Shown: positions 812 to 4,614 of the stretch, piece by piece | Numbering within the stretch: position 1 is the first letter of the stretch | How the letters are laid out: every line of letters starts with the position of its first letter | Position numbers and translations under genes: made by a program | The notes under the pieces: model-generated | What the model saw: only the letters and a program-made list of their open reading frames with translations | Database searches by the model: none | What the model was told of the DNA's origin: nothing | Assembly (NCBI RefSeq): GCF_001592935.1 | Contig: NZ_LRDB01000001.1 | Coordinates: forward strand, 310,001 to 374,000 | Direction of reading: 5' to 3' | Source of the DNA: Roseivirga echinicomitans | GTDB taxonomy: Bacteria > Bacteroidota > Bacteroidia > Cytophagales > Cyclobacteriaceae | DNA: 64,000 bases

Positions 812-833
812 TTAGGATTCCTTACTATATTTG
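812..833 (+). promoter_or_regulatory. Operator 1 (812-824) plus -7 box (826-833) of the redox module
   Basis: TTAGGATTCCTTA is a 13-bp palindrome with one mismatch around a central T. It directly abuts TATATTTG, an exact match to the Bacteroidota -7 consensus TAnnTTTG. The same operator-like sequence recurs at 1119-1131 and 2162-2174. A protein bound here would block the promoter of the CPVC gene that starts 35 bases downstream. Confidence 0.65.
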
Positions 834-868
834 CAATGCAATAGTGCAATAAATCAAATTCTATTAAA

Positions 869-1102
869 ATGAATAAATCAATTTTTTATCATGCAGGATG
901 TCCTGTATGTGTAAGCGCAGAACATGACATTGTTAATTTAGTTGGAGCTGACAATGTTGAAGTTGTCAATATTGGCGAAAACCGAGTAAGAATATCAGAG
1001 GCAGAAAAAGCAGGTGTTAATTCTGTACCTGCATTGGTAACACCAAACGGTAACACACTTCATATCAATTTCGGTGCATCTATGGCAGATGTAAAAGGGT
1101 AA
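869..1102 (+). CDS. Small thioredoxin-fold protein with CPVC active site
   Basis: The 77-residue cytoplasmic protein begins MNKSIFYHAGCPVCVSAE. The CPVC motif (Cys11, Cys14) sits right after the first beta strand, as in glutaredoxin-like proteins, and SVPALVT gives the expected cis-proline loop. It is shorter than glutaredoxins (about 85-100 residues) and ends abruptly after FGASMADVKG. It is the first gene of a module controlled by a repeated palindrome, with an unknown secreted protein, a DUF2024 protein and a MarR regulator. The likely role is thiol-disulfide exchange or sensing; the substrate is unknown. Confidence 0.8.
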   Translation: MNKSIFYHAGCPVCVSAEHDIVNLVGADNVEVVNIGENRVRISEAEKAGVNSVPALVTPNGNTLHINFGASMADVKG

Positions 1103-1118
1103 TATTTAATTATTATAG

Positions 1119-1131
1119 TTAGGATTCCTAA
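1119..1131. promoter_or_regulatory. Operator 2, perfect 13-bp palindrome
   Basis: TTAGGATTCCTAA is a perfect dyad around a central T, between the CPVC gene and the secreted-protein gene. The promoter box behind it is poor (TAATCTAT at 1129-1136), so this copy may modulate an internal promoter rather than a strong one. Compare 812-824 and 2162-2174. Confidence 0.6.
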
Positions 1132-1165
1132 TCTATAATAATATTCTAACTTCTAAAAACAATTC

Positions 1166-1888
1166 ATGATGAAATCAATACTCATATTACTGTTAACAAC
1201 CTTACTATTAAGCGCTAAATCTTTTGCGCAAAAACACCAATACAAAAATGACGACTTCAACATTAAAGAAGTAAGCGTAAGTCACGAACCCAATCTCGGA
1301 GTTACTGTTTGGGAAATAAGAGTCAATGGAACAGCAGGAAAAACAACACCGACAAAAGTTGGACAGCTTGATGGCGCACCAGTTTTAGGATATGTGTTTC
1401 CCACCAGTTTAAAACCAACTGATGTAGGTTTTAATCAAACAGACGGTATTGTGGCACTTGCCCTAACATCTCATCCCGATTTTGACGATACACCTCTGTG
1501 GGACGAGAATAACGACAAAGTGTATGATAACGATGGCCTTGTTTGGCATCCGCACTGGGTAATCCTACACGAAGATGAGCGAGTAGCAGGTGGTCTTTCT
1601 GTAAAACAATTTAAAAAAGCAGATGAAACAGTTGTATTGCCACCAACTAACCCAGGAATGCCAATGTATATGGATTCACCAGGTTATCCTGTTACCGCTA
1701 AAAGCAATACCATAAAAGTTATAGTCCCTGATTACCGAATGAACAACAAAACGGACTTCAATTATGATGGTGTAACAGCATTTATGCAAGTAAACACAAG
1801 CAATGAAAACTTACCAATGCTAGGCGTTTACGAAGTTTTTAGCGTAGCAAGTGGAGATTTATCTCTACCGTATAAAGTCAAAAAGTGA
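1166..1888 (+). CDS. Secreted protein of unknown function, Asp/His-rich
   Basis: The 240-residue protein has a clear Sec signal peptide (hydrophobic SILILLLTTLLLSA, cleavage after SFAQ). Either ATG of the initial ATGATG could start it. I do not recognise the family. The mature part has an acidic Asp/Asn run (DENNDKVYDNDGLVWHPHW) followed by HEDER, which looks able to bind metal, but no known site can be assigned. No membrane segment or lipobox follows the signal, so a periplasmic or extracellular location is likely. It lies between the CPVC protein and DUF2024 under an operator shared with both, which suggests an envelope branch of the same stress response. Confidence 0.8.
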   Translation: MMKSILILLLTTLLLSAKSFAQKHQYKNDDFNIKEVSVSHEPNLGVTVWEIRVNGTAGKTTPTKVGQLDGAPVLGYVFPTSLKPTDVGFNQTDGIVALALTSHPDFDDTPLWDENNDKVYDNDGLVWHPHWVILHEDERVAGGLSVKQFKKADETVVLPPTNPGMPMYMDSPGYPVTAKSNTIKVIVPDYRMNNKTDFNYDGVTAFMQVNTSNENLPMLGVYEVFSVASGDLSLPYKVKK

Positions 1889-1892
1889 TACT

Positions 1893-2156
1893 ATGAAAAT
1901 AGCGATTTGGGACACATATGTAAAAAGGGAAGATGGCAAGGTTATGCATTTTGATATTTTAGTGCCAAAAAGTGTAACGGATGAAAAAACCATATTTGCC
2001 TATGGTAAGGCTTATCTAAAAACCAAGCCTTTTCCAACTAATCAATTATCTGCGGATGAATGTCGTCTTTGCCATATGGAGCAAGCTACCAAAGATACTA
2101 TCTTGTCAATTGAACAAAAAGGATATTCAATTATAGAAATGGAAAATTGCAGTTAA
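1893..2156 (+). CDS. DUF2024 family protein
   Basis: The 87-residue cytoplasmic protein begins MKIAIWDTYVKREDGKVMHFDILVP, characteristic of the DUF2024 family, whose biochemical role is unknown. The ATG at 1893 is chosen because it gives the family N-terminus; the open frame before it overlaps the previous gene. The protein contains CRLCHME, a CX2C pair followed by His, and a further Cys near the end. It starts 4 bases after the preceding stop and is probably co-transcribed. Its link with a CPVC protein and a cysteine-bearing MarR regulator points to thiol or metal stress; that is inference. Confidence 0.82.
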   Translation: MKIAIWDTYVKREDGKVMHFDILVPKSVTDEKTIFAYGKAYLKTKPFPTNQLSADECRLCHMEQATKDTILSIEQKGYSIIEMENCS

Positions 2157-2161
2157 TTTAA

Positions 2162-2179
2162 TTAGGATTACTAACTTTG
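2162..2179 (+). promoter_or_regulatory. Operator 3 overlapping the -7 box of the MarR gene
   Basis: TTAGGATTACTAA (2162-2174) is the third copy of the module's palindrome, with one mismatch. Its last bases are also the first bases of TAACTTTG (2172-2179), an exact TAnnTTTG box. Binding of a dimer here would occlude the promoter, the usual autoregulation of MarR proteins. The expected transcription start, about 5 bases past the box, falls inside the 5' arm of the hairpin that begins at 2179. Confidence 0.65.
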
Positions 2180-2209
2180 CCTGTCGAACTAATCTCGGCA
2201 GGCTTTTTT
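2179..2209 (+). terminator. Intrinsic terminator abutting the MarR start codon
   Basis: GCCTGTCGA (2179-2187) pairs with TCGGCAGGC (2195-2203 region) through nine pairs, one a G-U wobble, followed by six T. This would end the upstream three-gene transcript. The T-run is followed immediately by the ATG at 2210. Transcripts starting at the overlapping promoter would lack most of the 5' arm and so should escape the hairpin. Confidence 0.7.
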
Positions 2210-2821
2210 ATGAAAGAAAGTACATTTAACCCGAATCAACAAGAAAAGGATATTTCGAGTAAAATCGTTGCAGGGTTGGAACGAGTTTCAGAAGTATTTA
2301 AAATCTTGTTATGGGAGAAAGCCAAAATGGTTGGTTTAAGTCCGATACAAATTCAGATACTTATTTTCATAGCATTTCATAAACGGAGTTTATGCAACGT
2401 TAGCCATCTTGCAAAAGAGTTTAACGTAACAAAACCAACTGTAAGTGACGCTGTTAGGATTTTGGACAAGAAAAGGCTTATCATAAAGGACTTTTCATCA
2501 TCAGATAGTCGAAGTTATTCAATATTATTATCGGATTTAGGCAATGATATAGTTTCTCAAACGAATGACTTCTCAAATCTGTTAAAAAAGGAAATTAATG
2601 GTTTTTCGCAATCCGAATTAGAAAGTTTGTTCGGAACTTTAAGTCAACTGATTTTCAAATTAAATCGTAACGGAATATTAAGCGTTCAAAGAACTTGCTA
2701 CGGTTGTAGGTTTTATGAAAGAAATCAAGAAATTGATTATTGTTACCTACTTCAAAAAGAATTATTGAACAAGGAAATCCGATTGGACTGTCCAGAATAC
2801 GAAGAAAAAGCCCGTGGTTAA
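2210..2821 (+). CDS. MarR-family regulator with a four-cysteine C-terminal site
   Basis: The 203-residue protein is a winged-helix MarR regulator: LSPIQIQILIFIAFH and LAKEFNVTKPTVSDAVRILDKKRLI form the helix-turn-helix, and SDSRSYSILLSDLG the wing. After the dimerisation helices it carries Cys163, Cys166, Cys178 and Cys194 (CX2C-X11-C-X15-CP), a spacing able to hold zinc or an iron-sulfur cluster, which is not a general MarR feature. The ATG at 2210 is preferred; the in-frame TTG at 2177 lies inside the promoter box. It is the natural candidate to bind the three palindromes of this module. Confidence 0.88.
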   Translation: MKESTFNPNQQEKDISSKIVAGLERVSEVFKILLWEKAKMVGLSPIQIQILIFIAFHKRSLCNVSHLAKEFNVTKPTVSDAVRILDKKRLIIKDFSSSDSRSYSILLSDLGNDIVSQTNDFSNLLKKEINGFSQSELESLFGTLSQLIFKLNRNGILSVQRTCYGCRFYERNQEIDYCYLLQKELLNKEIRLDCPEYEEKARG

Positions 2822-3042: not shown

Positions 3043-4614
3043 TCAACGCCCACTATTAAACACCCGAATCAGTTTGCCGTCTTCTTCGTCAGAAAGTAAA
3101 TAGAGTTGCCCTCCAGGAGAAACAATTGCTTTTCTTAACCTCACTCTGCTGTTGATGAAGAGTTCTTCGGCACTTATGATTTTATCGCCATCCACCACCA
3201 TTCTCCACAAGCTGCCTTTGCTCAACCCAGGCACAATCAAATTACCTTTCCATAAAGGAAATTCTCTACCTGAGTAAAAGGTCAATCCTGTTGGTGCAAC
3301 AGTGTGTTCCCATGAATATAATGGATCGGTAAAAACGGCTCCCGAAATCGCCTTTGGTTGGTAATCCGTTCGGTAACTGCCCCTAGTAACATTAGGCCAT
3401 CCGTAGTTTGCGCTTGGCTTCAGAATGTTCAGTTCATCTCCTTGGTTTGTACCGTGTTCACTAAACCATATATCTCCCGTTTCTGGATGTATGGCCAGGC
3501 CCTGCGAGGCACGAATACCAATGGCAAACAAACCCTTAATCGCACCCGATCCAAAATCAGGGTTGTCTTTTGGAATACTCCCATCAGGGTTAATTCTGAT
3601 GACCTTTCCTCGCTTGTCTTTTACATCCTGCGCAACTGGAATTTCAGGGTTCATATACTCAAAGAAGTTACGCTCACCAATGGTAATGTATAGCTTGCCA
3701 TCCCTGCCGAAGATCATTCCGCCCCCATAGTGATAGAGCCCATGCACATAAGGTTCTGCTACAAAAAGCGTCTCCACCTCTTTCAGCTCTTTGTCAATCA
3801 GCTTTCCGCGAATAACTTTGATAGTGCTGGCGCGCGCTTTATTCTCCGCGGCATAGGACATATATACATAGTTATTTTGGTCAAAGTCCGGGTCGAGGAG
3901 CACCTGAAACCAGCCAGCATTGGCGCTTAGGGTTTGCCCATGAAGACTATTAGGGAAAATGCCTTTCTCAAATTTCGTAGAGTCAACCCGCACGGCCCTC
4001 GCCACATCCTTTGGTAATCCTGAAACGGCTTTCCGTTCTTTGGTTTCCAAATTAACGCGAAGAAGGCTGCCATCCTTTTCAGCAATAAGCACATCATTTT
4101 CTGAAAGAAAGGCCATGCTCCAAGGCCTGTTGAGCCCCGTCAGTACAACTTCCTTTGCTGGGTTTGGCGTGAACGCTTCAGGCGCTTTGGGAATCGGTCC
4201 GGCTGAAGTGGCCTTGCCCACAATTTTCCAATGACCAAGGATCTTTTTAAGCAAGAGTAAATCATGATATCGATTCCCAAAAGATGGAATATCAATCTCT
4301 AATTTGGCATAAGCCACATCTTTCACAATCTCAATGCCGATGATCTTTGATGGCCGATTATTCAACGTGCCTGGCGCTTTACGCCCATACAACCCTGCAT
4401 ACTCTTCGGAGGTCATAAAATAGGCCGAGTCCGTCCCATTATAAAGAAACATTCTGGTACCCGGATGGAAAGCCATGGCTATCGAGTCTGGATAGTTATA
4501 CTGGGTACCCACAATAAATTGATTGAGTATTTTCGTGATTTGCTCATGATCTGTTTGGGCAAAACACGGGCTGATACTTATGACAGCCAGAAAGATGAAT
4601 GCTTTAATTTTCAT
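3043..4614 (-). CDS. Secreted lumazine-binding/NTF2-like domain fused to PQQ-type sugar dehydrogenase
   Basis: The 523-residue secreted protein (signal peptide ending SPCFAQ) has two parts. Residues about 20-145 resemble the Lumazine_bd_2/SnoaL-like NTF2 fold (EQITKILNQFIVGTQYNYPD, then DLLLLKKILGHWKIVGKA). From about 155 to the end it is a glucose/sorbosone dehydrogenase-type beta propeller: LNRPWSMAFLSENDVLIAEK, HYGGGMIFGRDGKLYITIGER, and WFSEHGTNQGDELN-NYGWP. The family oxidises sugars or aldoses with pyrroloquinoline quinone in the periplasm; activity here is inferred. It is transcribed away from the MarR module and faces no operon partner. Confidence 0.85.
   Translation of the reverse strand: MKIKAFIFLAVISISPCFAQTDHEQITKILNQFIVGTQYNYPDSIAMAFHPGTRMFLYNGTDSAYFMTSEEYAGLYGRKAPGTLNNRPSKIIGIEIVKDVAYAKLEIDIPSFGNRYHDLLLLKKILGHWKIVGKATSAGPIPKAPEAFTPNPAKEVVLTGLNRPWSMAFLSENDVLIAEKDGSLLRVNLETKERKAVSGLPKDVARAVRVDSTKFEKGIFPNSLHGQTLSANAGWFQVLLDPDFDQNNYVYMSYAAENKARASTIKVIRGKLIDKELKEVETLFVAEPYVHGLYHYGGGMIFGRDGKLYITIGERNFFEYMNPEIPVAQDVKDKRGKVIRINPDGSIPKDNPDFGSGAIKGLFAIGIRASQGLAIHPETGDIWFSEHGTNQGDELNILKPSANYGWPNVTRGSYRTDYQPKAISGAVFTDPLYSWEHTVAPTGLTFYSGREFPLWKGNLIVPGLSKGSLWRMVVDGDKIISAEELFINSRVRLRKAIVSPGGQLYLLSDEEDGKLIRVFNSGR

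Follow-up and report, generated by a model that had tools for sequence, protein, structure and literature searches.

The window analysed here, i.e. the whole stretch of 64,000 nucleotides from Roseivirga echinicomitans (contig NZ_LRDB01000001.1, positions 310,001 to 374,000), carries near its beginning a compact cassette of four genes, all of them encoded on the forward strand. The first gene (869–1102) codes for a thioredoxin/glutaredoxin-like protein of 77 residues with the sequence HAGCPVC, designated TRX below and recognised from sequence, profiles and alignment. The second one (1166–1888) specifies a probably exported, beta-rich protein of 240 residues, designated SEC and described from its sequence and a model, and the third (1893–2156) an 87-residue protein with a CxxCH motif, which is a clear member of the family DUF2024 (PF09630; 102.9 bits, cut-off 27). 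The fourth gene (2210–2821) encodes a MarR-family regulator of 203 residues with a C-terminal four-cysteine extension, recognised by profile and alignment, its winged helix-turn-helix being matched by MarR_2 (PF12802; 40.9 bits, cut-off 27). The two products other than the regulator to which an earlier, sequence-only reading of this DNA had ascribed CX2C motifs are DUF2024 (CRLC) and TRX (CPVC). No description of this module was found in the literature covered, consisting of open-licence papers.

Three copies of one palindrome, TTAGGA-N-(T)CCTAA, had been noticed before the genes of the CPVC protein, the secreted protein and MarR, and all of them are present. They are the putative operator 1, TTAGGATTCCTTA, at 812–824 (forward strand) before TRX; the putative operator 2, TTAGGATTCCTAA, a perfect palindrome listed without strand at 1119–1131 before SEC; and the putative operator 3, TTAGGATTACTAA, at 2162–2174 (forward strand) before MarR. 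Equally, two of the three do abut or overlap a TAnnTTTG promoter box of the Bacteroidota type, both boxes lying on the forward strand: the −7 box of TRX, TATATTTG (826–833), is situated one base past operator 1 and that of MarR, TAACTTTG (2172–2179), overlaps operator 3, no such box being found in the window sequence at operator 2. The pattern TTAGGATTMCTWA, with at most one mismatch, gives four matches in the window, at the three operator places only and on both strands at the middle one, whereas 100 shuffles of the window gave 0.62 matches on average and 3 at most.

A feature absent from the sequence-only reading is an intrinsic terminator located directly after the MarR promoter box (2179–2209, forward strand), formed by a hairpin with a 9-bp stem (2179–2203) and a run of six T to position 2209 that abuts the MarR start codon. 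Among relatives, 66 of 73 MarR leaders contain a terminator-like hairpin, compared with 2.5% after shuffling, and the stem sequences differ between loci. MarR appears to have a promoter of its own and to be set apart by the terminator from the genes before it; with the −7 box lying just ahead of the hairpin, transcription from this promoter would begin within the stem and so escape termination.

A scan of contigs yielded 147 relatives of the MarR protein, the best 80 of which, mostly from Flavobacteriaceae and with identities up to 87%, were kept as the near loci (loci are numbered with L and genomes with G where they have to be told apart). Among 110 loci, the shared families are MarR (105, ordinary MarR proteins included), TRX (84), DUF2024 (73) and SEC (59), and no other neighbouring gene recurs in more than 8 of the 110, L001–L030 covering only about 1.5 kb per side. 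The four genes thus move as a group, sometimes an incomplete one, between differing genomic contexts. Upstream stretches of at least 60 nucleotides, the window locus included, were examined up to 150 nucleotides from the gene for sites matching 10 or more of the 12 arm bases. Nearly every TRX gene (85 of 86) and all 59 SEC genes have one, as do 83 of 99 MarR genes but only 11 of 75 DUF2024 genes; in shuffled upstream stretches the rate is 0.5–1.2%. The mean identity of the site is 0.96–0.99, against 0.49–0.75 for the flanks. The commonest variant depends on the promoter, being TTAGGANTCCTTA for TRX, TTAGGANTCCTAA for SEC and TTAGGATTACTAA for MarR, the sites of the last carrying A at position 9 in 65 of 83 cases. 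The spacing of the promoter box is preserved as well: among the near loci, TAnnTTTG begins at +14 from the start of the site in 70 of 76 TRX upstream stretches and at +10 in 53 of 76 of those of MarR, whereas SEC upstream stretches rarely have the box close to the site (1 of 56).

Sites were also found beyond the near loci, where a site was regarded as near if it lay between 60 nucleotides inside and 350 nucleotides before the start of an open reading frame of a cassette or neighbour family. The co-occurrence of gene set and palindrome in other Bacteroidota, which had been proposed as a check, was seen in 28 of 44 other loci of that phylum, where a near site matches 11 or more of the 12 arm bases, whereas control arms gave 0.12 on average and 1 at most. 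Such a site was also found in 8 of 27 plasmid loci (control arms 0.03 on average). The shorter core TAGGANTCCTA occurs at 16 sites in the plasmid loci, 15 of them near cassette or neighbour genes and distributed over 12 loci, compared with an average of 0.03 for 29 control cores. Its carriers are Rhizobiaceae (with ATAGGANTCCTAT), Sphingomonadaceae, Thermus oshimai, Nostoc and Spirosoma, so that the plasmid loci with the core span Pseudomonadota, Bacteroidota, Deinococcota and Cyanobacteriota; in Thermus thermophilus and Deinococcus, forms of the core with one mismatch precede P460 and MarR. In G003, G011 and G020, longer stretches revealed a site before SEC, with 11, 10 and 12 of the 12 arm bases, respectively.

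Concerning sites away from the cassette, the 45 genomes with this MarR hold 27 strict sites in the forward pattern vs 22 in the reversed control, the excess being one of location, not of number: 19 lie within cassettes and 8 elsewhere. Two of the latter precede cytochrome P460 genes, at distances of 38 and 31 bp, on a contig that does not hold MarR (G218 and G504), and a third lies 24 bp before an AAA ATPase gene followed by a YggS-like gene (G011). The remaining five, inside open reading frames or between gene ends, look like chance. Eight loci with TRX or DUF2024, four from one genus and two from another, belong to genomes where no such MarR was detected, and none of their sites reaches 11 of the 12 bases. 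Since sites occur in trans in MarR genomes and are missing from these 8 loci, the palindrome follows MarR and not the target genes. The sequence-only reading had held that gene sets lacking the palindrome would speak against it; most sets that keep MarR do keep the palindrome, while 16 of the 44 other Bacteroidota loci have no site with 11 of the 12 bases near a cassette gene, and the TRX/DUF2024 sets in genomes without a found MarR lack it.

By comparison, then, the core TAGGA-N-TCCTA abuts or overlaps the promoters of the regulator's own gene and of target genes, and its pairing with the four-cysteine MarR can be considered very probable; we regard the assignment of the palindrome as the operator of this MarR as strong on comparative grounds. 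The slimmest of the alternatives would be that the palindrome is the site of another factor, or is shared by descent only. It can draw on the fact that binding by MarR is deduced from comparison and that common descent accounts in part for the conservation among the 80 near loci, but the same core precedes different, non-homologous genes in different phyla and was not found where MarR was not found.

The four cysteines of the regulator, which had been noticed as a C-terminal feature, are C163, C166, C178 and C194 (CxxC-x11-C-x15-C; codons within 2696–2791, forward strand). They are invariant in 27 of 27 aligned sequences, and 147 of 148 MarR loci, each represented by its best match (E ≤ 1e-13) and with repeated places excluded, have the motif CxxC-x(10-17)-C-x15-C, the exception, L071, being a frame that ends early. 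They likely constitute a metal, Fe-S or redox centre, and it is rather probable that this centre is the one that senses the signal. The extension is covered by none of 60 of the 93 solved matches, these ending by about profile position 160. Redox regulators of the OhrR/MexR/SarZ type have a palindromic operator over the promoter and repress themselves. They share the MarR fold with the window protein but differ from it in that its cysteines lie in the extension beyond the solved MarR matches; the OhrR model NF052638 gives 19.4 bits, against a cut-off of 200.

The closest working precedent is ArnR of Corynebacterium glutamicum, described in PMC12343034 as a winged-helix regulator with C-terminal cysteines and a [4Fe-4S] cluster, which responds to nitric oxide (NO) and represses hmp and narKGHJI. 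Both proteins combine a winged-helix MarR/ArsR-like domain and a dimerisation helix with a C-terminal cysteine-bearing sensory part. ArnR, however, has three conserved cysteines at positions 179, 193 and 223 (C-x13-C-x29-C) and no fourth according to the same paper, a spacing not shared by the window protein and its relatives, with CxxC-x(10-17)-C-x15-C in 147 of 148 loci, ArnR being compared here by its published positions and not by sequence; its described targets include NO defence (hmp), whereas those of the window MarR differ. Because the cysteine spacing disagrees, membership is not claimed. NsrR, as presented in that source, is an NO-sensitive repressor of defence genes, and the window MarR would work likewise by analogy; NsrR belongs, however, to the Rrf2 family, whose model PF02082 gives only 16.5 bits with the window protein (cut-off 30).

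Among the proposed targets, TRX has the hallmarks of the thioredoxin superfamily, i.e. an N-terminal CxxC and a Val-Pro (cis-Pro) loop. C11, C14, V53 and P54 are invariant in 20 of 20 aligned sequences, as are HAGC-VC and SVPA, although no Pfam or NCBIfam family matches above its cut-off (Thioredoxin_3 reaches 17.3 of 24.8 bits, the other matches being below theirs, too). In the cassettes of L002 (825–1448), L009, L016–L018 and L185–L187, a thioredoxin-like protein of 208 residues with CPGC takes the place of TRX or accompanies it. In DUF2024, C57, C60 and H61 are invariant in 16 of 16 aligned sequences, and the family is listed as metal-binding, with a count of 29 under ‘Thaumarchaeota (30 genomes)’, in PMC6393860; a search of the literature covered gave one paper that names the family. 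A Rof-like protein adjoins DUF2024 in L016–L019, L143, L152 and L155 (in L143 with 14.3 bits, below the Rof cut-off). SEC has an N terminus that resembles a signal peptide by eye, and H103, D105, D108, H128, H130 and D170 do not vary among 31 sequences (Bacteroidota, Pseudomonadota and Deinococcota), pointing to a metal site. The SEC family has no match above cut-off in Pfam and NCBIfam, its predicted fold no match with E ≤ 0.001 in the PDB, whether the weak model or the better one (pLDDT 88) is used, and among solved structures only matches by sequence of E 0.29 or worse. The invariant His/Asp set, the four cysteines of MarR and an E1-E2 ATPase gene about 3.3 kb from MarR in L178 are what could be cited for a response to copper or zinc, with MarR as a direct metal sensor and SEC as a periplasmic metal binder. 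This is quite improbable, given that no metal exporter recurs, no fifth family reaching more than 8 of the 110 loci, and that the model of the AdcR-type zinc regulators (NF038251) gives 22 bits, against a cut-off of 175.

With regard to its history, the cassette has a GC content of 34.5%, compared with 45.4 and 43.8% alongside, only 3.5% of window stretches of the same size being equally low. At the DNA level it shares about 80% identity with the nearest relatives, the similarity ending at the cassette edges, and its MarR shares 61% identity with that of the best other genome of the same family vs 82% with that of L036 (Cyclobacteriaceae). From the low GC content, the sharp edges and these identities, a recent horizontal gain is likely. 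Across 395 Bacteroidota genomes, the four-cysteine MarR occurs in 28 and DUF2024 in 19, 13 being shared (Fisher P 1e-12), while TRX occurs in 16, of which 12 are shared with MarR (Fisher P 2e-12), these P values being computed over genomes without correction for relatedness. The 28 correspond to 32 matches less four weak ones (G287, G330, G349 and G450; E 5e-11 to 7e-11), dropped as ordinary MarR proteins, and with at most 8 candidates scored per genome the MarR may be missed in some. In the 45 MarR genomes, MarR is no more than about 2 kb away from 24 of 25 DUF2024 genes, a split gene being taken as one.

The signal can be considered from the neighbours of MarR in other lineages. In the same 45 genomes, none of the six protoglobin genes with E < 1e-25 is farther than 1.8 kb from MarR, and 5 of 11 P460 genes at that threshold adjoin it; P460 precedes MarR on both Thermus plasmids, and the P460 and protoglobin genes beside MarR carry the same operator site. 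Truncated-haemoglobin-like proteins are encoded in or beside the cassettes of L075 (after MarR), L120, L123 and L154, with Bac_globin scores just below the cut-off of 21 in L123 (20.2 bits) and L154 (20.7 bits), both being supported by pairwise profile matches; in L123 (842–1498), DUF2024 and such a domain share one reading frame. A 73-residue fragment in L124, also gathered as truncated-haemoglobin-like, is not supported by Pfam. HTHP is present in L035, inside the cassette between SEC and DUF2024, as well as in L143 and L153, NnrS in L157; in L143, Hmp and an accompanying Rrf2 regulator are encoded at a distance of about 5 kb. The plasmid loci with heme proteins are L141, L143, L148, L153, L154, L162 and L165, and a YiiM-type MOSC protein is found in 10 of 27. 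P460 oxidises hydroxylamine, and YiiM-type MOSC proteins reduce N-hydroxylated compounds. The common thread of these neighbours is the defence of heme, Fe-S and thiol centres.

Apart from this MarR, truncated haemoglobin, TRX and DUF2024 are consecutive in L199, and in L200 DUF2024 lies between truncated haemoglobin and RIC. Both hold a CcoN/CcoO-like heme-copper oxidase pair (about 240 bits, ccoN cut-off 583), followed by truncated haemoglobin and DUF2024, a group that is possibly an NO-handling operon; L200 further contains HTHP, RIC and hemerythrin.

The sequence-only reading had suggested thiol or metal stress, which may still apply; the recurrence of heme proteins beside MarR, together with the operator shared by the P460 and protoglobin genes, tips the balance slightly towards reactive nitrogen species as the physiological signal, at odds a little short of even. 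Less likely is general oxidant or thiol stress, in which a Zn(Cys)4 or disulfide switch would be opened by peroxide, HOCl or electrophiles, with TRX, redoxins, thiol peroxidase and catalase responding. TRX itself is part of the cassette, redoxin-like proteins are neighbours in 11 of 27 plasmid loci, in line with the character that had been called redox-like, and CMD-type proteins in 5 of 27; catalase is annotated in L143, L154 and L164, SOD in L167 and thiol peroxidase in L148. That explanation leaves aside, however, the operator shared by the P460 and protoglobin genes next to MarR, as well as HTHP, truncated haemoglobin, NnrS and RIC nearby.

Improbable, though better placed than metal stress, is a response to poisons of heme or pyridoxal phosphate (PLP), where hydroxylamine, cyanide or a similar nucleophile would be the signal and YggS and MocR-type genes would answer damaged PLP. 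YggS-like or MocR-type genes lie within about 2 kb of TRX, DUF2024, SEC or MarR in L143, L149, L152, L155, L167, L194–L197, L201 and L202, and the AAA ATPase–YggS-like pair of G011 has its strict operator, as described above. MpaR is cited in PMC11837568 as answering cyanide-modified PLP. Among the 80 near loci, however, such a gene occurs in L067 only, and L194–L197, L201 and L202 are without operator, from genomes where MarR was not found. In these latter loci, TRX or DUF2024 has YggS-like or MocR-type genes close by, which hints at a tie to PLP.

Returning to reactive nitrogen defence under the four-cysteine MarR, a number of observations weigh against it. On the side of the signal, redoxin-like neighbours (11 of 27 plasmid loci) outnumber heme-protein neighbours (7 of 27), and catalase, SOD, thiol peroxidase and CMD-type genes are found there as well; the recount of the plasmid neighbours took reactive nitrogen from nearly even to slightly lower odds and oxidant stress from just over a quarter to nearly a third. 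Searches by seeds found a heme protein in only two of the 80 near loci (L035 and L075), six of the 11 strong P460 genes lie away from MarR, four of them without a site in the stretches examined (two in G014, one each in G415 and G423), neither of the two weak protoglobin matches of G135 is close to MarR, and protoglobin occurs in only 5 of the 28 MarR genomes of the phylum sample. On the side of the operator, in addition to the 16 Bacteroidota loci mentioned above, not even a site with 9 of the 12 bases lies near at the gammaproteobacterial, Paraburkholderia, Phaeobacter, Ruegeria and Cytobacillus loci, and shared descent inflates the counts for the near loci, the genomes being taken without phylogenetic correction. 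In the whole genome of 4.18 Mb, the pattern TTAGGANTNCTWA has seven matches at six places, three of them the cassette, two within open reading frames and one, on contig C49, 133 nucleotides upstream of an open reading frame of unknown role; with nine matches for the reversed control pattern, genome-wide rarity was discarded as an argument for the palindrome, being not decisive.

Taken together, the cassette of R. echinicomitans would be one form of an old, cross-phylum regulon under an autoregulated four-cysteine MarR repressor, devoted to defence against reactive nitrogen, a reading to which we assign a probability of about 0.48. In this scheme, a MarR dimer would repress the target promoters and its own; as the −7 box abuts or overlaps the site, bound MarR should block RNA polymerase, until it is released by a signal acting on the four-cysteine centre, which would be an Fe-S cluster or Zn(Cys)4. 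The most likely signal would be nitric oxide or a related reactive nitrogen species. The set induced in the window would comprise the cytoplasmic thiol reductase TRX, the DUF2024 protein and the exported, metalloprotein-like SEC, these being joined or replaced in other lineages by P460, protoglobin, truncated haemoglobin or HTHP. The earlier idea of a self-contained, MarR-controlled module with a cytoplasmic and an exported arm thus finds support in the conserved gene content, the conserved operators and the tie between operator and MarR across phyla. A more far-reaching version, with roughly a one-in-three standing and hence tentative, sees a horizontally moving NO/hydroxylamine regulon governed by an unnamed MarR class with a four-cysteine (Fe-S) sensor and the operator TTAGGANTCCTAA, its effectors including DUF2024 and SEC.

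As for other features of the window, the open reading frame at 47–628 resembles by eye the C-terminal part of UvrA and is followed at a short distance by a 19-nucleotide inverted repeat (653–690) with 95% complementarity. On the reverse strand, positions 3043–4614 encode a protein that resembles glucose/sorbosone dehydrogenases and has a lumazine-binding-like domain at its N terminus (PF12893 and PF07995).

The results give a function-linked context to DUF2024 and to the exported SEC family, and provide a definition of the operator usable for finding the regulon in genomes of several phyla. The question of the signal can be reduced to one regulator, one DNA box and simple reporters, and, should the signal be NO or hydroxylamine, a regulator class would be added to the known regulators of nitrogen stress.

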